DNA from: a virus
Length of the DNA: 35,969 nucleotides
IMG/VR virus record: IMGVR_UViG_3300017772_000045
Coordinates: 1-35,969 of that record
Strand: one strand, 5' to 3'
The notes beneath the pieces were generated by a model. It was not told the origin of the DNA, made no database searches, and saw only the letters and a program-made list of their open reading frames with translations. Numbering within the stretch: the first letter of the stretch is position 1; every line of letters starts with the position of its first letter. The translations under genes were made by a program, and so were the position numbers. Shown here in pieces: positions 53 to 20,579 of the stretch.

Positions 53-745
53 ATGCCTGAAGATAAATTTTATGATTACTACACAAGAGAGGAAATGATT
101 GTAAAGTTTATGCCTCTTGTAGAGAATTTAGCCCGTAAATTTTCAACAACACAGCAAGCCTCAGGTGTATTAAGTATAAATGATTTAATACAAGAAGGCA
201 ACAAAGGTTTAACTTTAGCGGTAGATAAATTAGATTGGGACATGCTTGTTGATTCTGAAGATATAGAAAAAACTTTAAAAAGTTTCTTTAGCAAAAGAAT
301 TAAAGGAGCGATCAGACGAGCAATAGATATCAATAGAGGGGATATTAAAATACCAGAGCATAAGCTTAATGAGATACGTAAGAATCCAAATGATGACAAA
401 ATGGTTTCTTTATTCTTTAATAGTATTTTCACAAGCTATGACGTTATCCCCCCTGATGAAGATAACTACGCATATCAATTTCCGGATAATTCTGTACCAT
501 ATAATATAGACTTATTAAACACTTATTTGCTGGGATTAATGCAAGAACACTTAACACCTAAACAATACGATGTAGTAAGATTATTTTATGGCTTAGACTG
601 TGATAAACACTCTGCAAAACAAATAGCAGATTATATTGGGCTAAAAGTTCCTACTGCTACGGTAATAGTTTCTCAAATTAAAAAAGAAGCAATTGACCAT
701 TTAATCGCTAATGTCGACAGCAATCAAGTGATTGATTATCTTTAA
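53..745 (+). CDS. Phage-encoded RNA polymerase sigma-70-like factor
   Basis: This 230-residue protein looks like a compact sigma-70-family factor that would redirect host RNA polymerase to phage promoters. A region-2-like segment covers about residues 14-93, with the core-binding type motif DLIQEGNKGL at 44-53 and a basic helix FFSKRIKGAIRRAI at 78-91. A region-4-like helix-turn-helix covers about 167-217, starting LTPKQYDVVRLFYGL, with the probable recognition helix near 195-210. Regions 1 and 3 are absent or very divergent. The reading frame has no stop back to base 2 of the window, so the true start may lie upstream and the gene may be 5' partial; ATG at 53 is simply the first visible start. 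It heads the + strand block and is followed by recombination genes. No phage RNA polymerase is visible here, so a sigma subunit is a sensible way to control timing. The family call is by motif; its promoters are unknown. Confidence 0.72.
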   Translation: MPEDKFYDYYTREEMIVKFMPLVENLARKFSTTQQASGVLSINDLIQEGNKGLTLAVDKLDWDMLVDSEDIEKTLKSFFSKRIKGAIRRAIDINRGDIKIPEHKLNEIRKNPNDDKMVSLFFNSIFTSYDVIPPDEDNYAYQFPDNSVPYNIDLLNTYLLGLMQEHLTPKQYDVVRLFYGLDCDKHSAKQIADYIGLKVPTATVIVSQIKKEAIDHLIANVDSNQVIDYL

Positions 746-4374: not shown

Positions 4375-4650
4375 ATGCCTAGTATATATGGAAAACGCAC
4401 AAAGCCTATGCCGCTTTATAATTATTCAGAAGAAGAGTTTAAGTGGTATAAATACTGTGTGAATAATAATATAAGGATATCGCCGTGGGGTATACAAAAC
4501 AATTATGATAAGTGGCATATAGCTATAAATCTTGGGCCGTATGTAAAATGGGAAAAGCCTCATTTATCACCTAGTCAGTATTGTAGAAAAACGATATGGC
4601 CAGAATATTATAAAATGTGTAAATACTATTATGACAAACATAGAAAATGA
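4375..4650 (+). CDS. Small aromatic phage protein, function unknown (91 aa)
   Basis: A 91-residue protein starting directly on the base after the primase-helicase stop and overlapping the next gene by 20 bases, so it is translationally linked to both. It is very rich in Tyr and Trp (YNYSEEEFKWYKYCVNNN near the start, then ISPWG, KWHIAI, WPEYY and a YYYDKHRK end) and basic overall. I see no catalytic motif or membrane segment. Proteins of this style recur in marine phage genomes without a known role. The placement between replication and nucleotide metabolism suggests an early function, but nothing more can be read. Confidence 0.7.
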   Translation: MPSIYGKRTKPMPLYNYSEEEFKWYKYCVNNNIRISPWGIQNNYDKWHIAINLGPYVKWEKPHLSPSQYCRKTIWPEYYKMCKYYYDKHRK

Positions 4651-5455
4651 ATACAAAGAATTATTATCAGAAATACTCGACAGAGGATTGGATAAGGAAG
4701 ATCGAACAGGGACTGGGACGAAGTCTGTCTTCGGAAGAACGATTAGACACGATATGTCATTGGGCTTCCCTATACTTACAGGAAAGAAAATAAGTTTTAA
4801 TGCAGCAAGAACAGAGCTGCTGTGGATATTACAAGGTAGAACTGATCTTAAGTATTTAGAAGATAACGGTGTTAAGTACTGGCGACCAGATTACAAACGC
4901 TCAGGTAGAACAGATGAAACATTAGGTCCTGTATACGGAAAACAGTGGCGTAATTTTAACGGCGTAGATCAGCTCTATAATCTTGTGTATAGCATTGATA
5001 CTAATCCAGACTCTAGACGTCTTATGATTAGCGCATGGGCTCCACATGAGATGAAAGATATGGTGCTCCCTCCGTGTCATTATGCTTTTCAAGTTTATAT
5101 TAACAACGGTGTTATGAATTTAATGTGGCAACAAAGATCCGCTGATGTGTTCTTAGGTTTACCTTACGATATTACAATGTACGGTTTATTATTAGAGATG
5201 TTGGCTAAGGGTGCTGGACTTGAAGCTGGTCAACTTATTGGTCAACTTGGTGACTGTCATTTATATAACAATCATTTAGAACAAGCAAAAGAGTATAGAA
5301 GAAGATCTAAACGGGCTTTGCCATTTCTACATTTAGATAGAGGCCTCAGTCATAATGTACTAGGCGGTTTGAATATACCTGATAGCTTTGAAATTAAATT
5401 AATTAACTACAATCCTTATCCTGCGATCAAAGCAGAGTTGAGTGTTGGTAAATAA
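4631..5455 (+). CDS. Thymidylate-synthase-family enzyme, probably acting on dCMP
   Basis: A 274-residue, full-length member of the thymidylate synthase family, which adds a one-carbon unit from methylene-tetrahydrofolate to C5 of a pyrimidine deoxynucleotide. Conserved residues, by E. coli equivalents: R25 (R21), E62 (E58), W84 (W80), Y102 (Y94), R129/R130 (R126/R127), nucleophile C149 in LPPCHY (C146), R169 and S170 (R166, S167), D172 (D169), H210 and Y212 (H207, Y209). The exception is residue 180: the motif is GLPYDI where thymidylate synthases have GLPFNI, so the dUMP-selecting Asn177 is Asp. Asp at this site occurs in T4 dCMP hydroxymethylase, and engineered Asn-to-Asp synthase methylates dCMP. 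The likely product is therefore 5-hydroxymethyl- or 5-methyl-dCMP. Ordinary dTMP synthesis remains possible. MazG-type genes follow directly. Confidence 0.92.
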   Translation: MTNIENEYKELLSEILDRGLDKEDRTGTGTKSVFGRTIRHDMSLGFPILTGKKISFNAARTELLWILQGRTDLKYLEDNGVKYWRPDYKRSGRTDETLGPVYGKQWRNFNGVDQLYNLVYSIDTNPDSRRLMISAWAPHEMKDMVLPPCHYAFQVYINNGVMNLMWQQRSADVFLGLPYDITMYGLLLEMLAKGAGLEAGQLIGQLGDCHLYNNHLEQAKEYRRRSKRALPFLHLDRGLSHNVLGGLNIPDSFEIKLINYNPYPAIKAELSVGK

Positions 5456-7088: not shown

Positions 7089-7227
7089 GAATGAAAGAGG
7101 GTGGAGTTTAACAGTAGGCTTCTACCCAGGAATATTATTTGGAATGAGAAGCTATCATGAGAAGGATTTTTCAACTCATGTGCTATACATGCCTTTAATT
7201 GATTTAGCATTAGAAATTGATAATTAA
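7075..7227 (+). CDS. Small conserved-looking ORF before nrdB (50 aa)
   Basis: An ATG at 7075 gives 50 codons; its TAA overlaps the nrdB ATG by one base (TAATG), a classic translational coupling. The product contains WSLTVGFYPGILFGMRSYHE followed by a hydrophobic VLYMPLIDLALEID end. The Gly-Phe-Tyr-Pro-Gly segment and the coupling suggest a real small protein. I do not recognise a function. The hydrophobic pieces are too short and broken for a clear membrane helix. Confidence 0.55.
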   Translation: MEEIKNERGWSLTVGFYPGILFGMRSYHEKDFSTHVLYMPLIDLALEIDN

Positions 7228-8195
7228 TGGGACTATTCGATGAGCGCATTGCGTACAAACCATTTGAATATCCTGAATATTACAACGAGGGTTGGTTAAA
7301 ACAAGCTCAAGCATTTTGGTTACACACTGAGATCTCAATGCAGAGCGATATAAAAGATTGGAATGAAAGACTTACAGAAAAAGAAAAAAACCTTGTTGGG
7401 AACATACTTCTTGGATTCGCGCAGACCGAATGCGCTATTTCAGACTATTGGACCCAGAAGATCGTATCGTGGTTTCCTAAACACGAAATAAAACAAATGG
7501 CCATGATGTTTGGCTCACAGGAAACAGTCCATGCAGTAGCTTACAGTTACTTAAATGAGACATTAAAATTAGAAGACTATGAAGCATTCTTACACGAACC
7601 AGCGACGTCTGCTAGATTTGATAATTTGGTTGCTTACGACGGTAATGATCCTGTTGGTATTGCGAAAAGCTTGGCTGTATTTTCAGCCTTCGCTGAGGGA
7701 GTTAGCTTGTATAGTGCTTTTGCAGTGCTGTATAGTTTTCAGCTTCGAAATTTACTCAAGGGTATCGGGCAACAAATGAAATGGTCTGTAAGAGACGAAT
7801 CATTACATAGTAAAATGGGTTGTAAATTATTCCGTGATATGTGTAGTGAAAACGGGCAGCTTTTAAACTTATGTCGAGAAGATATAATAAAATCTGCAGA
7901 AACCATGGTAAAGCTAGAGTCTGCTTATATAGACAAAATGTTTGAAATGGGAGATATAGACGGTATAGCTGCTATAGATTTAAAACACTTTATAAAAAAG
8001 AGATCAAATGAAAAACTTGTGGAACTGGGATACATCGACCTCGGATCGTACTTCGCGTATGACAAAAATGCGGCTGGCAATCTCGATTGGTTTTATCATC
8101 TTACCGGGGGCGTTACCCATACTGATTTTTTCGCTATTCGTCCGACAGATTATTCGAAGGCTGGAGAAAATGAAGACTTCGAAGATGTTTGGTAA
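7227..8195 (+). CDS. nrdB: Class I ribonucleotide reductase, small (beta) subunit
   Basis: A 322-residue radical-generating subunit of aerobic ribonucleotide reductase; it stores the tyrosyl radical used by NrdA to reduce ribonucleoside diphosphates. The diiron site is complete: E68 (in QTE), E99 and H102 (QETVH), E157 (FAEGV), E191 and H194 (DESLH). The spacings between the first pair and between the third and fourth ligands match E. coli NrdB (84/115 and 204/238). The radical tyrosine is Y106, seven residues after E99, so this is not a tyrosine-less subclass. The C-terminus ends NEDFEDVW, an acidic/aromatic tail that would dock on NrdA. It is followed by a tiny ORF and nrdA, so both subunits come from one transcript. 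Confidence 0.95.
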   Translation: MGLFDERIAYKPFEYPEYYNEGWLKQAQAFWLHTEISMQSDIKDWNERLTEKEKNLVGNILLGFAQTECAISDYWTQKIVSWFPKHEIKQMAMMFGSQETVHAVAYSYLNETLKLEDYEAFLHEPATSARFDNLVAYDGNDPVGIAKSLAVFSAFAEGVSLYSAFAVLYSFQLRNLLKGIGQQMKWSVRDESLHSKMGCKLFRDMCSENGQLLNLCREDIIKSAETMVKLESAYIDKMFEMGDIDGIAAIDLKHFIKKRSNEKLVELGYIDLGSYFAYDKNAAGNLDWFYHLTGGVTHTDFFAIRPTDYSKAGENEDFEDVW

Positions 8196-8289
8196 GATAG
8201 ATATAACGGAAGAAGAGATATATAAAGATCTTAATTGGAATGGAATGAGAAATTATATTAAGAAAAAAAGTAAAAAATATGTGGAATGA
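8170..8289 (+). CDS. Tiny ORF between nrdB and nrdA (39 aa)
   Basis: A short frame lies across the nrdB-nrdA junction. ATG at 8170 gives 39 residues; an in-frame ATG at 8185 gives 34 (MFGKIDITEEEIYKDLNW onwards). It ends TGA at 8287-8289, inside nrdA. The product is acidic in the first half and ends in a Lys-rich KKKSKKYVE tail. It may be a real regulator of the reductase or simply a coupling peptide that carries ribosomes onto the nrdA start at 8279. No family recognised. Confidence 0.4.
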   Translation: MKTSKMFGKIDITEEEIYKDLNWNGMRNYIKKKSKKYVE

Positions 8290-9997
8290 AAACTGGAAAA
8301 AAGGAGAAGATTACCCTGCGTGGGGTAATAACGACGTATACAAGAAGACTATATCCGGGGGATATTTATTCGACGGAGAAACACCTAAAGAAGCATACCA
8401 GAGAGTCTCTAAAACAGTTGCTCGTAGGTTATATAAACCGGAAATGGCTGAAACGTTCTTCCAGTACATCTGGAATGGTTGGCTTTGCCTCGCTTCGCCA
8501 GTATTATCTAACACAGGTACTGATAGGGGTTTGCCTATTAGCTGCTTTGGGATTGATGTTGCTGATAGTATACAGGACATAGGGCAAAAGAACTTAGAGA
8601 TGATGCTACTCGCTAAGCACGGCGGTGGAGTTGGTGTCGGTATAAATCAAATAAGACCCGCTGGCGCTAAAATAACAGGAAATGGAACAAGTGATGGCGT
8701 TGTGCCTTTTTGTAAAATATACGACTCGACAATACTTGCCACTAATCAAGGATCTGTCAGACGAGGAGCAGCATCGGTTAATATCAATATTGATCATACC
8801 GATTTCGAAGAGTGGCTTGAAATACGTGAACCCAAAGGAGACGTCAACCGTCAATCGCTCAACTTGCATCAATGCGCTGTTGTTGGCGATAAATTCATGC
8901 GAAGACTTGAAGCGGGAGATAAACAAGCAAGAAAACGTTGGGGAAAACTTCTTCAAAAACGTAAAGCTACTGGAGAACCTTATATCTTATTTAAAGGGAA
9001 CACAAATAAAAATAACCCTAAAGCCTACAAAGATAACGGTCTCAAAGTACACATGACAAACATATGTTCAGAGATTACATTACACACAGATGAGAATCAC
9101 AGTTTTGTTTGTTGTTTATCATCATTAAACTTAGCTAAATATGAAGAGTGGAAAGGTACAAACCTTATTTATGACAGTATATGGTTCCTTGATGGAGTTA
9201 TGGAAGAGTTTATACAACGAGCTAAAGGCTTACGAGGTTTCGAGAATGCAATACGATCAGCTACGAAAGGAAGAGCGCTTGGCTTGGGAGTTTTGGGCTG
9301 GCACACATACTTACAAGAAAAAGGTATCTCGTTCGAAGGTTTACTCGCTCAGTTTGAAACTAGGAAAATTTTTAGTCAGATCAAAATTGAAAGCGAAAGA
9401 GCTTCCATGGCGCTTGCTGAAACTTATGGAGAGCCTTTATGGTGTACTGGTACTGGTATGCGCAATACTCACCTGCGTGCTGTTGCTCCCACTGTTAGTA
9501 ATAGTAAGCTTAGTGGTAATGTTTCTCCAGGTATTGAACCGTGGGCTGCGAATGTTTTTACAGAGCAGAGTGCAAAGGGGACTTTCATTAGGAAGAACCC
9601 GACGTTAGTTAAACTATTAAGAAAACATAAGTTAAACAATGAGGAAATCTGGGGAAAAATCTTGGCTGATGGTGGTAGTGTGCAAAATATTACTGAGCTT
9701 GATGATGTTATGCTGGCACACGAAACACCCGCAAAGGAGGTATTTAAAACGTTTAAGGAGATTAATCAACTAGAATTAGTTAATCAAGCTGGACTGAGAC
9801 AGCAATATGTAGATCAGTCAGTTAGTTTAAACTTAGCTTTTCCTAGCGTAGCAACGCCAAAATGGTTAAACAAAGTTCACTTTGAAGCCTGGAAAAAAGG
9901 TGTTAAAACATTATATTATACGAGGACAGAGTCTGTCTTACGTGGAGATATTGCACAGCAAGCAATGAGTGAAGATTGCCTTGCGTGTGATGGCTAA
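8279..9997 (+). CDS. nrdA: Class I ribonucleotide reductase, large (alpha) subunit
   Basis: A 572-residue catalytic subunit that reduces ribonucleotides to deoxyribonucleotides. Active-site residues by motif: C89 (PISCFG), N261-x-C263-x-E265 (NICSE, with the thiyl-radical cysteine C263), C278 (the second redox cysteine, in CCLSSLNL), Y546-Y547 (LYYTR, the radical-transfer pair) and the C-terminal shuttle pair C567/C570 (DCLACDG). The protein begins almost directly with the catalytic barrel: there is no N-terminal ATP-cone, and at 572 residues it is much shorter than E. coli NrdA (761). It therefore probably escapes dATP inhibition, useful when a phage needs a large dNTP pool. It is the last gene of the + strand block. 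Confidence 0.95.
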   Translation: MWNENWKKGEDYPAWGNNDVYKKTISGGYLFDGETPKEAYQRVSKTVARRLYKPEMAETFFQYIWNGWLCLASPVLSNTGTDRGLPISCFGIDVADSIQDIGQKNLEMMLLAKHGGGVGVGINQIRPAGAKITGNGTSDGVVPFCKIYDSTILATNQGSVRRGAASVNINIDHTDFEEWLEIREPKGDVNRQSLNLHQCAVVGDKFMRRLEAGDKQARKRWGKLLQKRKATGEPYILFKGNTNKNNPKAYKDNGLKVHMTNICSEITLHTDENHSFVCCLSSLNLAKYEEWKGTNLIYDSIWFLDGVMEEFIQRAKGLRGFENAIRSATKGRALGLGVLGWHTYLQEKGISFEGLLAQFETRKIFSQIKIESERASMALAETYGEPLWCTGTGMRNTHLRAVAPTVSNSKLSGNVSPGIEPWAANVFTEQSAKGTFIRKNPTLVKLLRKHKLNNEEIWGKILADGGSVQNITELDDVMLAHETPAKEVFKTFKEINQLELVNQAGLRQQYVDQSVSLNLAFPSVATPKWLNKVHFEAWKKGVKTLYYTRTESVLRGDIAQQAMSEDCLACDG

Positions 9998-11207: not shown

Positions 11208-14200
11208 TTATTTTTTCCATTTTTTATTTGAACTACTTTTTTTCCATTTAGAAGTTTTACCAAATTTGTTTTTCTTACTTGAAGACTTTTCAATTAATCC
11301 TAGATCCCATTGGCTCCACCCTAATAATAGCGCAACTTTTTGCCAATACTTTGTATCGCCATCTAAAGCAACTCTTACATTGTCTGCTTTCCTAATAGCT
11401 CTGTCTAAAGGTATATTTAACAATGCAGATACCCCTTGTCCAAAAGCATATAAAGCAGGATCATCTAGTTTACCAGTACCCATTTTTTCTCTAACACTCT
11501 TATAACTAAATGCTCTACCTATTGATAAAGCTTTACGTATTTTAGAATCGATCGGTGGAGATATACTAAGCATCTTTAAAGAAGCCTGTGTATAATCAGG
11601 TCTATCTTTATTGCTTTGTTTGTTTATCTCTAAAAGTATATTTTTAAGAGTAGAGACAATAGCCCCGTAAACACCTGTACCTCTTAACACAGAGTCTGCC
11701 ATAGAGTTTACTGTTCTTAATTCTTTATTCTCAATAGTCTCTTCATCTTCATCTTCAAATGCTGCTGCAAATAATGCTGACTGTAATCCTGAGAATATAA
11801 CGTTTTGAACAAAAGTGTAATAAAGTATTTTAGTTATATTAGTCTTCGCGTCACCCCTACCGTTCTTAAGATCAAGTACAGCCTTTTTGGTAAGTCGCAT
11901 GTATTGCATAGGTGTATTAGCAAACGCTAATATAATACGCCCTAACGGACTCGCTTGCTGTTGAGAGACTCTATCTGGTCTAGATGATTGTTGTGTTTCT
12001 TCTGCTATCTCTTGAAAATCTAAAAATGCTCTTTCCTCTGCCGCTTTCTTAGATAAACCTTCTTTAACATAGGTGTCAATTCTATTTCTTATAAACGATG
12101 CGCCACCCATTGCAATAGCAAAACTATCTGCCATTTGCGTTGGTAAAAATCCCGCTTTAAGTAAAGAAGACAAGGCAGCTCTTGTTTTGTTAGTAGCAGT
12201 AGCCGCGGCGTTTGCAATATCGTCCGCATTAACGTCATTCTTTAAACCTGATCTTCTTTGTTTTAGAAAGTCAGAATTAAAAAGCATTGCAAAATCTTTC
12301 CAGAATTGATCTTGATTAGCGAATGCTTTAGCAGCCATCACTGGATTATTGTCACCCCAATTAACGAAGTTAACCGTAGATAAAAGCTGTAATAAAGCTG
12401 ATCTAGTATTAAAAAACATTATAGTTCCAACTGAGTCGTTAACCCAATTCATAAACTGATTTGTTTGTTTATTTTTACCAGAAGGTCTGTTTCTACCTGT
12501 TTCCATGCGGTATAACATATCTTGCAAAGCTTCCTTGTAGTTTTTACCAAACCCAGCTTCTAGTTTATTTACGTTTTCTTCAGAAAATATTAAATCAACA
12601 TTAGCTTTCCATTCTTGTAAAAACTCTTCACGCTTGGTGGTGTTGATCATGTTTATAGCATCTGTGGTAATAGTGCCTGCTAACCAATCATTTTGAGGAG
12701 GAGGATAACCGCCTAATGCTTTATCCATTTGTTTTACAAAAGCCAAAAGGTCTGGATCATTTTGAACTATCTTTATTAAATCCCTAGTTTCGTTTTTGTC
12801 TAAGCCAGGTACAGTGTGCCCATTTTTTCTCCAAAGTATAACTCTTGCTGCGACTTCGTTTGTATAACCAGTGCTATTAACTTTCTTTAAACCAGCAGGA
12901 ACATCTTTTAAACTTTTCTTTAAATTATTTACAATGCCCGTAACATTCTGCTTGTAGCTTTCAAAATCCCGTATACCTTTAGCAAACGGATCGAACAAAG
13001 CTTTTTTAAACCAAGCTTGTTGAATCTCTCCGCGTTTTCCTTTACCTGCTAATTTATACATTAAGCCCTGAAAGTCTTCAGCAGACGGTGGTATAAAGAA
13101 ATCAAATCTACCTTTCTTTTCACCTGTTATTCTAGCTTTAGCTTCAAGCACTGTAGATCCTGCTTTTATACCTGTAGCGTCTTGTATTATTTTATTAAAG
13201 TCACTGTTTAAATCTCTAGAAAATTGCATCTTAGCTTGATGAACTTTTGACTTTACATCTGCCTCTTGTAAAACTGATTGAACTGCTTTTACATTTTTAT
13301 AAGCATCATCTGCAAAGTAAAAATCATTGTAACCTTCTGCTACTTTACTAATAACCCATTGAGCTTTAGCCATAGCAGTGCCATCACCTAATCCAATTAT
13401 ATTGTTTAATTTAATATTTAAGCCAATACCTTTTAAAAACTCGTGTATAGCATATTTCGAATTAGCTGGCCGAGCAGTTAAGATGTATACATTGCTGTTA
13501 CCGAATTTTTTATTACGCGCAACCGCCTTTTCAAACATAGGCCCTTTTTTGCCTTTCATAACCTTTTCAAACTCGCTGAAATCAAATACAGCACCAGCAT
13601 CTGCTAGCTTATCGCTGTTAAGAGCAAATTCGGTAGCATTTATTTTACCTTTAGTTCCGTCTGGCATTGTGTATAATACATTGCTTTTAGTTGTAGCTAA
13701 AGTATCGTCAAAATCCCATACACTAATCCCTTTAATAGGATGTTCAGGTAAGTTAACCTCCGCTCTTGCTTTGTTTAAATTTTGATCAGGCGTTTTAGAT
13801 TTTTGAATTTGTTTAAAACGATTGTGAAAAGCAGCAACGCCTCTTCTTGAATCTAAATTAATAGGAGATGATGCAACAGATTTTTTATCTTTAATTTGCG
13901 GCTCCGATATTAAGCTTAAGTTAGAAGTTCCCGCTTTTCTGTTATAATTAAACTTTAAACGCATTACACCTTTAAATTCTAAAGAACCTATATTAGGCAC
14001 TAGATCCTGTGTATTACCTAGGCTACCATTTAAGTTATATACGTCGTCCCCCAATAAAAACAAACCTTTTGCACCCATTTGTAATAAATGAGTATCTTTC
14101 GCATTATAGTGATCGCTAACAGTTTGGCCATCTGCATCTGTACTTATCTTAGCTAAAGCTCTATATGCTTTTGACTTTTTAATCTTTTTAACAGTTGATA

Positions 14201-17200
14201 TTTTTATTGACTTACCTAATGGAAATGAATTAAATTCTGTTTTTTCTATTTTATTTATTTGTTTAAGTATAGCTTTTAAATGGATTTCTGACTTTTCCAT
14301 TGCTCCCTTAAGCTTTTTACCAGTAGGTATATCTTCAAATGTCATTGACTTTTTAGAGCCATCTGCATTTTTACGCTTGCTTCTTACTATAAACTTAGTG
14401 CCATCTTCTGTAAATTCTATACCTAAAGTTGTTTGGCCAAATCTAGCGTAAACAGATTGCTTAAGCTCAACAGGAACATTTTCATTTTTAACAGTAAGCT
14501 CTATATCTGGCCTATTACTATCAAATCCCGCTTGCTCGCCCCTTAATGTTTTTACTTTTAAATCAATACCTAATGTTTTAGCACTAGAGGAGATTCTTTC
14601 CATGGATAGCATCTCATATATTATACCACCTAAAGTTGTTCCTTTTAATTTTAAAGTTTCTCTTACCCAGTTAGTAGCGTGCTGTAGGGATTCATTCTTA
14701 GATAAAAATTCTTCTGAATGAGGATCAAGATTTAAAGCATTCTTTACTTTAGTAGATGTTACCTGTGTTCTGTCGTACTTTATTAAAGGAGCTTCTTTTG
14801 AAAATTGTATTATGTCAAAGCCTGCTTGCTCTCCTTTATAGCGGTCTAATTTAGATTCTAAATTTTCTAGCTGAGCTTTAACAACAATCTCTTGGGTTAC
14901 GTCTAAAGCAGTTTCCGGAGCTAAGCTTTTAATATCTTCAAGCGATGTGATATTTTCTGGTGTAGCAAAATCAGCTACAACCTGTTTAGCTAAAGGCGTA
15001 AGTATTTCTCTAAATAATTGCTTTTGCCTTTCTAATACAGCGGACTTTTTACCTTTAACAAAATAAGTTAAAAAAGTCTTTTTATCAATTGCTTTAATTC
15101 TAAATACAGGATTACCTTCCGCGGTTAATTCTCTACCAACTCGTTCAATCGGAAATAGCTTACCATAGCTCTTTTTAATGCTTTTAATTGGCAAAGCTTT
15201 AGTTATTATATCAAAAGTTTTTGGATCGTTTAGAAAGTCTATATAAGCACCAGGAATGACCGCATTAGGGTATACTCCGGTAATAGCACCTAGCTTTTTA
15301 GATAACTTTTTAAACAGTTGTTTATTTACATAATTTTCCAACCATGTAACCATATAAACTTCTCTACCTTTCTTAACACTAATCATTTCAGATAACGTGC
15401 CTTTTTGAGTTCTTACTCTTATTTCCTTTTCAAGATCTGTTTTAATATCTTCGATTAGTGCATCGTCAACGATATCTAATTCATCAAATGTGGCTTGTCC
15501 TCTTTCTACGTTGCCACTTCTATCTATAGATTGCGTGTCTTGTGTAGATGCAACACCTTTAGCGTCATCTAAATTCGATGTAAACTCAGTGTTAGCTTCT
15601 TTAAACATTAAAGACTGCCTAGTCTGTATTATCTTTTTTACATACCCAGCTAGATCTTTGTTTTTAGCGGGATTGTATGTACGAATAGCGCTAACTACTT
15701 CAGCTCTTAATATAGATAAAGCATCTTGAAACTCTAAAGCTTCAGTTGCAAATTGTTTAAACTTTTGTTGAACAATAGTATTTATATAACCTTCAAACAT
15801 AGGTACCAACTTGCGCTCTACTGGAGCAGGTAAAGGTTTACTAGCCTTATATTCTGGCCTTTCAATACCGTACATGCCTACATTATAGGCGTCCATTATT
15901 TTTTGAGATAACGGATCTCTAGGTCCTAGATCTGTGGTCCTTGTTGGTTTAGCTGGCCTTTCTTTTTTAACTTTTGGCTTTGGTTTTGGTTGAGCCTTAA
16001 TAGGTGCTTGTGGATTTAAAGCAACCTCTTCTGCTGCATCTAATGCGGCTTCCGCTGCATCTAAGTTATCAAAATATCTAGGATCATTAGGGTCTGCATT
16101 TTGTGCGTTCTCTAAATCAATTTCTGCTTGTTCTACAGTTTTAGAAAACTGATTGCCTCCCACAGCTTTAGCTTCAGACACTTTAACTCCTTTGTTTTTT
16201 TCAGCAGTCTTTACTGCTTGTATCGCTGCGTCGCTTAACTTGCCAGACTTAATACTAGTATTGTATTCCTTAAGGAAATTATAAACGTCTTGGCCGTTGT
16301 CAAAAGATATATTACCTAAATCAGATTTAGAAAATACATTTGCTATAGCTCCTTTAAATTTATCAAAAGTCGTTAAATCGTAATTTATTTCACCGCTAAT
16401 TATACCGTCTGAAAAAACGTTCATTAGCTCTGTGGCTGTTTCAGCTTTAGAATAATTTCTTAATTTCAATTGCCTGTTTACATAAGCTTTTTGCTTGCTA
16501 GTCATTTTGGATTTAAAATCCTTTACAAATGCCCCTTGCGCTGTAACTCCACCGATAAGCGCATTAAATATAGGGTGCAACACCTCGTGACTCGCTATAG
16601 TAACTTGACCTTTGTTCCCAGTGGCTATGTCTATACTTCTTTTAGCTTTTGCTTTATTTACAAAAACCTTACCACCACCAGCAAACACTCCATTAGAGTT
16701 TTGTGCTTCAATTGCGGCTTCATTTAAAGACATGTTAGTAGCCTCAGATATTTTTTGAAAAAATTCATTATCTGTTTCCGCGATGTCTACATCAACACCT
16801 ATTGCTTCATATCCAGCTCTGGTGTTTTTATTAAAGCTAGCTTCAAACTCACTTTCTACAGCATCAGCTACGGCTTGCTTTCTTTGCTCAATACTGGCAT
16901 CAACAGTTGCGTCTTTGTATAAATCTGAAATTGCTTGAAGCTTTATTTTGGTTTGTGTTATCTTTATTGCGTTACCTGTTTTGTTGGTTTCAAGGGAATT
17001 TAGTTCTCTTGTTAACCTTATAGCTTCAGCTCTGTCTGCAACGCCATTTATTCTGCTGTCTACTTTTAGATCGGTTGCTATGTTTTGTCTTCTATTGTTT
17101 ACTACTTCGTTTGCTAAAGGAGAATTTTTTATATCAATTTTAGCATTTACGTAAGCGTCATCGTTCATTATTTTAAGAGTCTCAGCAAATTTACTGCCGT

Positions 17201-18515
17201 TCATCTTTTCTCCATTAATAGCATAAGATGGATTTTTAAGCGCGCCTGGTAATTGAGTAAATGTAAAGACTTTATCGCCCATCATTTCCATACCTATTTC
17301 AAAAGGATCAATTTCCTGCCCAGCTGCCTGCTGTCCTTTTAGCTCGCTAATACCTCCACCTGCAGTTTCAACAGCTCCGGCAGTAACTATCCCACCCAAG
17401 CCTGATAATTTAGATAATCTAGTTCCTGAAATTAAATTAAAAGCAGTTTTCCCTGAACCCATTGTTACTAATCCGGTCACACCATCTACAAAACCAATAG
17501 TATTACCTCTAGCTATAGATCTACTTTGGATTTCCCCAAACACTTCCTCATTATTTACAATGTCTTGATATATTTTTATTCTTTCCGCGTCAGTGCCGTT
17601 CTTAAATTTGTCGCCATACATATCTTCAGCGGCTTCATTTAAAAGCTCTACAGTAGTAAAACCTTTTTCCATTGTTCTAGACGTTCCGCCCATTAACCCC
17701 GCAAAACCACCGGTACCTGCGCCAATAGCCTTAAGTCCTAATCCTAAAGCTTTTCCTTTCCAACCCCCTTTGCCGCTTCTAAGTAATTTATCTCCTAGTT
17801 TGTTTATACCATAACCAACCCCAGATCCCGCCGCGGTTGTTCCTGCCATAACAGCAGTGTCTTCAGCGTCTAGATCAATGCCTCCTAAAAATTCAGGCAA
17901 TACAGTTCTAAATTGCAAAACAGTAGAAGATGCTTGAGCTTTAGCTAATTGTTTTACACCTTCTGGAGTAGCTGCAGCTTTTGCAAAAGCATACCAATAT
18001 CCTTCTTTTTCAGCAATTTGATCAAAATTTGCTTTAAATTTTAAATAATCTTTGTCAGGAGCAACAGTTTCTTGATCCCTAGTGTTCTTAGCTAGCTCAG
18101 CATAGTCTTCTTTAGACATATCTGCACCCTCATTATAAACAGCTAAAGCATTAGGTAAAGCATCCGCTCTTGTCCAACCTTCTTTAGCCCCTTCCCATAA
18201 AGAACCTACTAAGCCTAAGCCTATATCAAAGTACGATTCCGAAGAATCTTCTTCCGATTGTGAATCCGTATCGTTTTGATTTGACTCCACAGCTGGATCC
18301 GCACTTGCAGAGTCGTTTGTCTTTGCTGGCCCCATGCCTATTAAAGATGAAAAGTCGTCCGCACTACCGCTATAACCATTCCCTTTAAATAAATTGTAAG
18401 AATCATTTAGAGCATCTTTTTCAGTTCTAATTAATTCTTGGTAATCCTCTATTGTGCCATTATAACCATTTTTAGCAAACAGGTTAAACGAGTCATTTAA
18501 TGCTTCTTCGTTCAT
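11208..18515 (-). CDS. Giant multidomain polyvalent virion protein (2435 aa)
   Basis: A 2435-residue protein in the late block, probably packaged and delivered with the DNA. In order: two 30-residue repeats at 5-64; a Gly-rich hydrophobic stretch at about 220-290 that may contact membrane; HEVLH at 643-647, a zinc-peptidase-type HExxH motif; a sigma-region-2-like segment at about 907-975; P1336-D1337 with E1350-L-K1352, a PD-(D/E)XK-like nuclease core; a HAD-type domain at about 1597-1750 with D1601-F-D1603-D, ILTARP near 1678-1683 and D1736/D1737; and a long helical C-terminal third with a hydrophobic stretch near AAAFEDEDEE. This mosaic fits the large polyvalent protein class, which acts on the host cell at infection. 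No vRNAP motifs were seen. Its 3' neighbours are four bases away. Confidence 0.75.
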   Translation of the reverse strand: MNEEALNDSFNLFAKNGYNGTIEDYQELIRTEKDALNDSYNLFKGNGYSGSADDFSSLIGMGPAKTNDSASADPAVESNQNDTDSQSEEDSSESYFDIGLGLVGSLWEGAKEGWTRADALPNALAVYNEGADMSKEDYAELAKNTRDQETVAPDKDYLKFKANFDQIAEKEGYWYAFAKAAATPEGVKQLAKAQASSTVLQFRTVLPEFLGGIDLDAEDTAVMAGTTAAGSGVGYGINKLGDKLLRSGKGGWKGKALGLGLKAIGAGTGGFAGLMGGTSRTMEKGFTTVELLNEAAEDMYGDKFKNGTDAERIKIYQDIVNNEEVFGEIQSRSIARGNTIGFVDGVTGLVTMGSGKTAFNLISGTRLSKLSGLGGIVTAGAVETAGGGISELKGQQAAGQEIDPFEIGMEMMGDKVFTFTQLPGALKNPSYAINGEKMNGSKFAETLKIMNDDAYVNAKIDIKNSPLANEVVNNRRQNIATDLKVDSRINGVADRAEAIRLTRELNSLETNKTGNAIKITQTKIKLQAISDLYKDATVDASIEQRKQAVADAVESEFEASFNKNTRAGYEAIGVDVDIAETDNEFFQKISEATNMSLNEAAIEAQNSNGVFAGGGKVFVNKAKAKRSIDIATGNKGQVTIASHEVLHPIFNALIGGVTAQGAFVKDFKSKMTSKQKAYVNRQLKLRNYSKAETATELMNVFSDGIISGEINYDLTTFDKFKGAIANVFSKSDLGNISFDNGQDVYNFLKEYNTSIKSGKLSDAAIQAVKTAEKNKGVKVSEAKAVGGNQFSKTVEQAEIDLENAQNADPNDPRYFDNLDAAEAALDAAEEVALNPQAPIKAQPKPKPKVKKERPAKPTRTTDLGPRDPLSQKIMDAYNVGMYGIERPEYKASKPLPAPVERKLVPMFEGYINTIVQQKFKQFATEALEFQDALSILRAEVVSAIRTYNPAKNKDLAGYVKKIIQTRQSLMFKEANTEFTSNLDDAKGVASTQDTQSIDRSGNVERGQATFDELDIVDDALIEDIKTDLEKEIRVRTQKGTLSEMISVKKGREVYMVTWLENYVNKQLFKKLSKKLGAITGVYPNAVIPGAYIDFLNDPKTFDIITKALPIKSIKKSYGKLFPIERVGRELTAEGNPVFRIKAIDKKTFLTYFVKGKKSAVLERQKQLFREILTPLAKQVVADFATPENITSLEDIKSLAPETALDVTQEIVVKAQLENLESKLDRYKGEQAGFDIIQFSKEAPLIKYDRTQVTSTKVKNALNLDPHSEEFLSKNESLQHATNWVRETLKLKGTTLGGIIYEMLSMERISSSAKTLGIDLKVKTLRGEQAGFDSNRPDIELTVKNENVPVELKQSVYARFGQTTLGIEFTEDGTKFIVRSKRKNADGSKKSMTFEDIPTGKKLKGAMEKSEIHLKAILKQINKIEKTEFNSFPLGKSIKISTVKKIKKSKAYRALAKISTDADGQTVSDHYNAKDTHLLQMGAKGLFLLGDDVYNLNGSLGNTQDLVPNIGSLEFKGVMRLKFNYNRKAGTSNLSLISEPQIKDKKSVASSPINLDSRRGVAAFHNRFKQIQKSKTPDQNLNKARAEVNLPEHPIKGISVWDFDDTLATTKSNVLYTMPDGTKGKINATEFALNSDKLADAGAVFDFSEFEKVMKGKKGPMFEKAVARNKKFGNSNVYILTARPANSKYAIHEFLKGIGLNIKLNNIIGLGDGTAMAKAQWVISKVAEGYNDFYFADDAYKNVKAVQSVLQEADVKSKVHQAKMQFSRDLNSDFNKIIQDATGIKAGSTVLEAKARITGEKKGRFDFFIPPSAEDFQGLMYKLAGKGKRGEIQQAWFKKALFDPFAKGIRDFESYKQNVTGIVNNLKKSLKDVPAGLKKVNSTGYTNEVAARVILWRKNGHTVPGLDKNETRDLIKIVQNDPDLLAFVKQMDKALGGYPPPQNDWLAGTITTDAINMINTTKREEFLQEWKANVDLIFSEENVNKLEAGFGKNYKEALQDMLYRMETGRNRPSGKNKQTNQFMNWVNDSVGTIMFFNTRSALLQLLSTVNFVNWGDNNPVMAAKAFANQDQFWKDFAMLFNSDFLKQRRSGLKNDVNADDIANAAATATNKTRAALSSLLKAGFLPTQMADSFAIAMGGASFIRNRIDTYVKEGLSKKAAEERAFLDFQEIAEETQQSSRPDRVSQQQASPLGRIILAFANTPMQYMRLTKKAVLDLKNGRGDAKTNITKILYYTFVQNVIFSGLQSALFAAAFEDEDEETIENKELRTVNSMADSVLRGTGVYGAIVSTLKNILLEINKQSNKDRPDYTQASLKMLSISPPIDSKIRKALSIGRAFSYKSVREKMGTGKLDDPALYAFGQGVSALLNIPLDRAIRKADNVRVALDGDTKYWQKVALLLGWSQWDLGLIEKSSSKKNKFGKTSKWKKSSSNKKWKK
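18324..18503 (-). repeat. Two tandem 30-residue repeats in the giant protein N-terminus
   Basis: Residues 5-34 and 35-64 are two copies of one unit with a 90-base period: ALNDSFNLFAKNGYNGTIED against ALNDSYNLFKGNGYSGSADD, then YQELI against FSSLI. The copies differ at the base level, so the duplication is old and held by selection. It may be a binding or packaging module. Confidence 0.85.
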
Positions 18516-19928: not shown

Positions 19929-20579
19929 TTATTCTCTGTTACCGTCCAATCCGGAGAGGAAGTCGCTAAATGCACCACCACCGAAAGGCATATCACCTGA
20001 GGCCATGCCTCCTAATACTCCTCCAGCTATACTACCCACACCACCAACAATTGCATTAGTAGCATCTTGCCTTGCCTGGTTAGCAGCCCCTAGTCTAGCT
20101 TGGGACATACCTAATAATGTGGAATTCTTTTCGTTTTCTGCATCTCTAGAGATTAATTCTCCTTTACGCTCATAAAGCGCTAAATTTCCAGCTTGCTGTC
20201 TTTCAGCCATTTGGTTTGCTTGTTCTTGTCTACCAATATCAACGGAAGCTGTTCTTAAGTTTTTTGTTTGTTGATTAGCCATAGCTTGCACCATGCCTGC
20301 TATTCCAGATCCTCCGGCTGCACCCGACATGTTACTCATTATATTCTGTAACCCTTGTTGCTCTTGTTCTGCTTGAAATTGAGCAGCTTCTTGATTAACC
20401 GTAAGATCTTCCATTGTATTTTGCATGTTCTCATACACATTAGATGTGTCTTGCATCTCAAAATTCATTTTTCTTTGGTTAAATTCTTTTTGGGCTGCCC
20501 TTTGTTCTTTTTTTCTTTTTCTAGAACCTATGATACCACTAGCTACGCCAGTTAATCCGCTTACTATTTGTCCTACCAT
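19929..20579 (-). CDS. Internal virion / DNA-ejection-type protein (216 aa)
   Basis: A 216-residue protein with hydrophobic Gly/Ala ends and a helical middle. The N-terminus (IVSGLTGVASGIIGS) and the C-terminal stretch near 178-196 (AIVGGVGSIAGGVLGGMASG) could insert in membrane. The centre is rich in Gln, Asn, Ala and Glu with coiled-coil character. This pattern is typical of small podovirus internal proteins ejected with the genome (T7 gp14-like, P22 gp7-like in layout). Position beside two larger virion proteins supports the call. The assignment rests on composition and context, not on a motif. Confidence 0.65.
   Translation of the reverse strand: MVGQIVSGLTGVASGIIGSRKRKKEQRAAQKEFNQRKMNFEMQDTSNVYENMQNTMEDLTVNQEAAQFQAEQEQQGLQNIMSNMSGAAGGSGIAGMVQAMANQQTKNLRTASVDIGRQEQANQMAERQQAGNLALYERKGELISRDAENEKNSTLLGMSQARLGAANQARQDATNAIVGGVGSIAGGVLGGMASGDMPFGGGAFSDFLSGLDGNRE

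Follow-up and report, generated by a model that had tools for sequence, protein, structure and literature searches.

A sigma-domain-2-like module embedded in a giant polyvalent-type phage protein

The locus and its giant protein

The window analysed here is the whole of IMG/VR virus record IMGVR_UViG_3300017772_000045, a marine phage sequence of 35,969 bases that is probably a partial genome. At the end of its virion gene module, on the minus strand, is an open frame for a giant multidomain protein of the polyvalent type. We regard this frame as a certain gene, because full-length relatives of the 2435-residue product are present on many IMG/VR contigs. The features with which we are concerned are the following.

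53..745, plus strand: sigma-70 family factor (TIGR02937, 44.8 bits against a cut-off of 42.9; phrog_351, E 1.3e-16; Sigma70_r2, E 5e-4)
11208..18515, minus strand: giant multidomain (polyvalent-type) protein, 2435 aa, an open frame where the virion gene module ends
16575..16589, minus strand: HEVLH zincin metallopeptidase motif, residues 643-647 (motif match)
16134..16151, minus strand: junction QFSKTV, residues 789-794, ahead of the sigma-2-like unit; may be cleaved
15552..15854, minus strand: sigma-region-2-like module, residues ~888-988 (profile and fold matches)
15591..15797, minus strand: interval first noticed, residues 907-975 (coordinates confirmed on the translation)
14796..15509, minus strand: domain D, residues 1003-1240, ending FDIIQFSK; conserved in relatives, of no known family
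14790..14807, minus strand: junction QFSKEA, residues 1237-1242, closing the unit formed by the sigma-2-like module and domain D
13221..13742, minus strand: HAD-like stretch (VWDFDDTL), residues 1592-1765 (phage polynucleotide kinase phrog_415, E 3.5e-4)
13209..13226, minus strand: third junction QFSRDL, residues 1764-1769 (motif match)

A preliminary description of this DNA had singled out residues 907-975 as resembling region 2 of sigma-70. The interval runs from a phenylalanine (residue 907, base 15797) to an asparagine (residue 975, base 15591). Both strings quoted for it, FEGYINTIVQQKFKQF and AIRTYNPAKNKDLAGYVKK, are present in the translation of the giant, and the arginine-containing end is accounted for by R966, within QTRQSLMF. 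The interval lies inside a somewhat larger module, in which helix 1 begins before the interval and helix 3 runs on past it. In the predicted model, helix 1 occupies residues 896-918, helix 2 residues 929-946 and helix 3 residues 955-985, and a loop carrying an aromatic-N/D-P..N..L.GY motif sits between the second and third of these. The same description had held that the phage would possess two sigma-like proteins, and this was right: the sigma-70 family factor encoded at 53-745 is separate from the module within the giant.

Several other features of the record may be mentioned. No zincin family was called in a Pfam scan of the giant, and the HAD motif was not found in many of the giant's relatives. 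In two relatives, L007 (its contig is shared with L090) and L102, about 400 additional residues are present ahead of the zincin motif, and HExxH lies near residue 1055 rather than at its usual position of about 600. Elsewhere on the plus strand, genes at 4631-5455, 7227-8195 and 8279-9997 provide for nucleotide supply; they encode thymidylate synthase and the two chains of ribonucleotide reductase. A virion-module gene at 19932-20579 (minus strand) shows a weak and possibly spurious match, below the cut-off, to the Pfam Tubulin/FtsZ GTPase family (E 0.008).

The portal gene, at the end of the record, has its relatives in podoviruses of Flavobacteriia, among them Cellulophaga phages, the Flavobacterium elemo phages and Maribacter Panino. 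When the whole giant was compared with 50,697 phage records a single record was matched, through the first 72 residues of the giant. In the GTDB genomes neither domain D nor the conserved C-terminal region of the giant had any relative, and therefore no host could be proposed from prophages.

One site, several versions of the module

Relatives of the window protein carry, in the stretch that separates the zincin motif from domain D, at least three versions of the module, which we call A (the window and its near relatives), B and C. For residues 881-1000, the near relatives reach an identity of 0.82-0.90 with the window protein; the other relatives reach 0.12-0.20, and directly past this segment identity is back at about 0.75. 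The module versions are only 12-25% identical to one another, with better conserved flanks. When the conserved C-terminal region of the giant served as query, 61 loci were retrieved, and these included additional versions whose motifs are, for example, FNPEKNNSLIGWIN, YNPESGVPLAAYI and WDPAANDSFGTYA. A version of the module was found in 49 of the 52 full-size giants, a count that is partly by construction since some versions were picked by their aromatic-N/D-P motif. Where both the module and the HExxH motif were found, the module begins 163-284 residues past the latter. A module that is held at one site while its sequence diverges is likely to mark a hot spot of interaction with the host.

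Sequence profiles place the module near sigma region 2

The resemblance of residues 907-975 to sigma region 2 was borne out at a level above chance by NCBIfam, by a profile search of the PDB, by profile-profile controls and by the predicted fold. The Pfam evidence, taken first, is weak. With the isolated segment as query, Sigma70_r2 (PF04542) ranks first or second among families at E 0.07-0.14, and the E-value is 0.002 when the search covers one record alone; over both searches the score is 12.4-13.5 bits, under the Pfam gathering cut-off of 24 bits. The idea that this weak match is due to chance was considered and rejected, the controls described below being against it.

Searches with other profile collections placed sigma families on top. 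Among 18,950 NCBIfam families the six best matches to the module were all sigma factors (SigI, SigE and SigK), with E-values from 3e-4 to 6e-3, and a profile made from nine sequences ranked SigE (8b3z) first in the PDB, with E 0.0019. SigE or SigI was also retrieved from NCBIfam by the modules of other close relatives, and one close relative, L031, retrieved no sigma family from that collection. Several of the divergent versions behaved similarly, the top NCBIfam match being TIGR02937 for L131 (E 2.5e-4) and L136 (E 0.025), SigK for L114 (E 0.013) and FliA for L132 (E 0.012). In the phage collection the sole matches of the L114 version were five Lactobacillus-phage records, at E 0.7-0.9, of which four are annotated as RNA polymerase sigma factor. 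Version B gave no sigma match by sequence. Neither did version C when compared with sigma by profile alone, and the sigma likeness of version C is that of its predicted fold. A tblastn search of the module against the 50,697 phage records returned nothing at E<=1. The notion that sigma likeness is confined to the window's own sequence was rejected, since relatives and distant versions also match sigma.

The controls mentioned above used a reference profile of region 2 from 12 real sigma factors, taken from plasmid and phage records. When 67 windows along the giant were compared with this profile, those covering the module took ranks 1-3; the best of them scored 15.1 over 76 of the 77 columns, and the best non-overlapping window scored 8.6 over 12 columns. 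An alignment of 19 versions scored 26.8 over all 77 columns, and eight distant versions, with version A left out, scored 29.8 over 76 columns. The reversed all-version alignment, used as a control, scored 1.2. A local hhalign comparison with the 12 sigma factors aligned 48 columns at 25% identity, with a probability of 78% and E 1.8e-5; the hhalign E-values are those of single comparisons without a database and are to be judged against the window and reversed controls.

The predicted fold

Two outcomes would have spoken against the preliminary description, a profile search without a sigma match and a predicted fold unlike the helical bundle of region 2, and neither occurred. In the AlphaFold model the module has a three-helix fold that is closest to sigma domain 2. 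The model of residues 885-1025, like the second model presented below, was built on a shallow alignment; its pLDDT is about 65-87 across the three helices and the tail is disordered. A Foldseek search among 350,542 PDB chains gave sigma domain 2 as the first nine matches, with probabilities of 0.97-1.00, and sigma factors filled almost all of the top 42 places, with modest E-values (the best was 0.03, at probability 1.00). Alignment of the window model with SigE by VIA-align 2 gave Z 9.3 and 2.2 A over 76 residues. A library of viral structures returned mainly phage sigma factors for the same model.

A second model comprised version C together with domain D, its module part having been built without version-A sequences. 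Version C, 20% identical to the window, aligned with SigE at Z 9.1 and 2.1 A over 79 residues. The first 16 matches of this model were all sigma proteins (Z 9.1-5.7), with unrelated proteins appearing from Z 5.1 down. Since sequence searches connect version C with no sigma family, its fold match provides largely independent support. As a whole, these models make it very probable that the module has a sigma-domain-2-like fold. We hold this claim below certainty because helical bundles may reach middling Z values through an accidental common arrangement.

Sigma features that are kept and lost

The sigma 2.2 motif QEG..G binds the beta-prime clamp, and the helix formed by regions 2.3-2.4 faces the promoter -10 element. 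It was therefore of interest which of these features the module retains. Most versions keep an acidic residue at the position of D403 (sigma70 numbering), and in the versions generally helix 2 closes with an aromatic residue plus N/D, often followed by P. The position of F427 is occupied by L or F, usually L, and that of Y430 by Y, W or F. Compared with the 12 sigma factors, the versions lack the core-binding 2.2 motif Q406-E407-G408..G411, the exception being an IQE in L136. The melting residues W433/W434 are absent from the versions, and both vary among sigma factors too.

Conservation is strongest in the third helix. Among nine version-A sequences, 72% of the residues in its first half (955-972) are invariant, versus 44% in helix 2. 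Helix 3 is also basic, with a mean charge of +2.6 in 19 versions versus +1.25 in the 12 sigma factors. With the basic helix 3 being best conserved and QEG..G lost, contact with nucleic acid is favoured over clamp binding. Sigma70_r4 was not reported by a Pfam scan of the whole 2435 residues at E up to 10, a scan in which the HMMER filters may drop weak matches. We conclude that the segment is a sigma-2-like domain and not demonstrably a sigma factor; by itself, the module is not a canonical sigma factor.

Domain D and the QFS junctions

The module is followed by domain D, which is 57-80% identical among relatives regardless of which of three module versions precedes it. In more distant giants domain D is absent or hardly recognisable, and a comparison with the 50,697 phage records gave nothing credible. 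It is predicted to be an alpha/beta domain with two hairpins, and its part of the version C plus D model, which with its two domains is a weak probe of domain D, had no structural match above Z 5. With no known structure clearly resembling domain D, its place beside the module says little about function.

Domain D closes with the tripeptide QFS, which all 14 aligned sequences share; the residues after it vary, and the predicted model is disordered there. The motif recurs. A slightly looser QFS[KR]-type motif occurs 1-5 times per giant in 16 giants, versus 0.02-0.07 expected from shuffles, and QFS[KR] is found at module boundaries in relatives L001-L017 also. The giants of phi38:1, MW202828 and Panino yielded no such motif. 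QFS[KR] seems to mark a boundary that recurs between modules, and processing may take place there; zincin domains have been proposed to process polyvalent proteins (Iyer et al. 2017, PMC5512222). If the junctions were real cleavage sites, they would reveal how the giants are dismantled.

Probable packaging of the giant

The Cellulophaga phage phi38:1 protein gp101 and the giant of the Flavobacterium elemo phages lie at the corresponding gene place and are annotated 'structural protein', the annotation of gp101 reading 'based on similarity'. Their N-terminal parts match the window family, with domain E-values of 7.6e-6 and 9.4e-9. These two proteins showed no clear sigma-2-like module (best domain E 0.01-0.05), and profiles of versions A, B and C are unrecognisable in the giants of phi38:1, elemo, MW202828 and Panino. 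Gene position, together with this weak homology to giants called structural, suggests that the giant is probably carried in the virion.

What the module may do

We propose that a sigma-domain-2-like module, whose helices correspond to sigma 2.1, 2.2 and 2.3-2.4, is embedded in a giant that is probably packaged and injected. The giant would enter the cell together with the DNA and might be cut at the QFS[KR] junctions, freeing a unit of about 450 residues that contains the module. The module would then contact nucleic acid, most likely in company with the host RNA polymerase, and at entry it might favour phage transcription or shut off that of the host. To the central element of this proposal, a nucleic-acid-contacting module that works with host RNA polymerase, we assign a probability of roughly 0.4. 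The involvement of RNA polymerase is weakened because the divergence among versions is far above that expected of a partner for the conserved beta-prime clamp surface. The most specific form of the proposal we consider unlikely as it stands, namely that marine phages inject a diversifying module derived from sigma domain 2 and released from a giant polyprotein, which captures the host RNA polymerase for early promoters before phage genes are expressed.

The alternative that survives best, somewhat unlikely in our estimate, is that the module owes its sigma-2 fold to descent but has come to act in nucleic-acid binding or tethering, for example by gripping the entering phage DNA, with no RNA polymerase contact. 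Loss of the core-binding residues and preservation of the promoter-facing basic helix are what such a domain would exhibit, the strong divergence among versions is consistent with it, and the stretch resembling the phrog_415 polynucleotide kinase fits a role in handling nucleic acid. The basic helix, however, could instead pack on another domain of the giant.

That the bundle is purely a structural packing element of an internal virion protein, with a sigma likeness that is convergent, seems to us quite improbable. In its favour, middling Z values are common among helical bundles, and version C lacks a sigma match by profile. Yet several independent versions put sigma families first in searches that make no use of structure, and the profile-profile alignment spans all of sigma region 2 and is accompanied by the window and reversed controls.

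Still more doubtful is an injected decoy that would sit where sigma-2 binds the beta-prime clamp, blocking host sigma factors without directing initiation. Domain 2 standing alone, with no region 4 reported, would suit a decoy, and the ordinary phage sigma factor encoded at 53-745 could act later; but the clamp-binding 2.2 surface is not preserved. Finally, a chance resemblance with no structural meaning, to which the Pfam match, not significant on its own, might point, is very improbable given the agreement of NCBIfam, the PDB profile, the profile-profile comparison, two separate models and several divergent versions.

Comparison with known systems

The reading that we prefer, a module contacting nucleic acid together with host RNA polymerase, may be set beside several known systems. 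The closest is sigma-70 region 2 itself (PF04542), the nearest members being SigE, SigK and SigI of Bacillota and the flagellar factor FliA. The module shares with it the order of the three helices, the aromatic-N/D-P that ends helix 2, the L/F..Y/W that then opens helix 3, and the fold, at 2.1-2.4 A over about 76-79 residues. It differs in scoring under the gathering cut-off, in lacking QEG..G and W433/W434, in residing inside a giant and in having no region 4 reported. The late sigma factor of T4, gp55, is essentially domain 2, and its flap-binding part is supplied by gp33. Like the module, gp55 is a phage sigma-type protein that amounts to domain 2; unlike it, gp55 is small and is made during infection, and the two are likened by description and not by sequence.

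The giant as a whole appears to resemble the polyvalent proteins in its size, its zincin metallopeptidase motif and its enzyme-like domains (PMC5512222). For that group, in which zincin is the commonest domain, co-injection with DNA and partial autoproteolytic processing have been proposed (PMC5512222). The word 'sigma' does not occur in the text of that survey (PMC5512222), and we found no sigma-2-like domain reported for polyvalent proteins in the open-access literature. A jumbo-phage paper names both polyvalent proteins and sigma factors, and its passages on them treat the two subjects separately. Within the open-access literature, the module would therefore appear to add a previously undescribed kind of domain to polyvalent-like giant proteins. 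Among named phages, phi38:1 gp101 and the elemo giant resemble the window giant in their place after the virion genes and their N-terminal homology, but differ from it in having no clear sigma-2-like module.

Phage N4 packages a virion RNA polymerase. In P23-45 an RNA polymerase is reported to be fused to a tail tape protein (PMC10770324). The giant described here would resemble the proteins of N4 and P23-45 in being a large protein, probably of the virion, with a transcription-type domain that acts before phage gene expression. In those two phages the domain is a whole RNA polymerase, whereas here it is a sigma-2-like domain alone, which would need the host enzyme.

Phages that depend on the host RNA polymerase are thought to win their early promoters through promoter strength or by means of small proteins made after entry, and T4 Alt is an injected enzyme that modifies RNA polymerase. 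An injected sigma-2-like domain, if our proposal is true, would act before any post-entry protein and would constitute a further route beside those of N4, P23-45 and T4 Alt.
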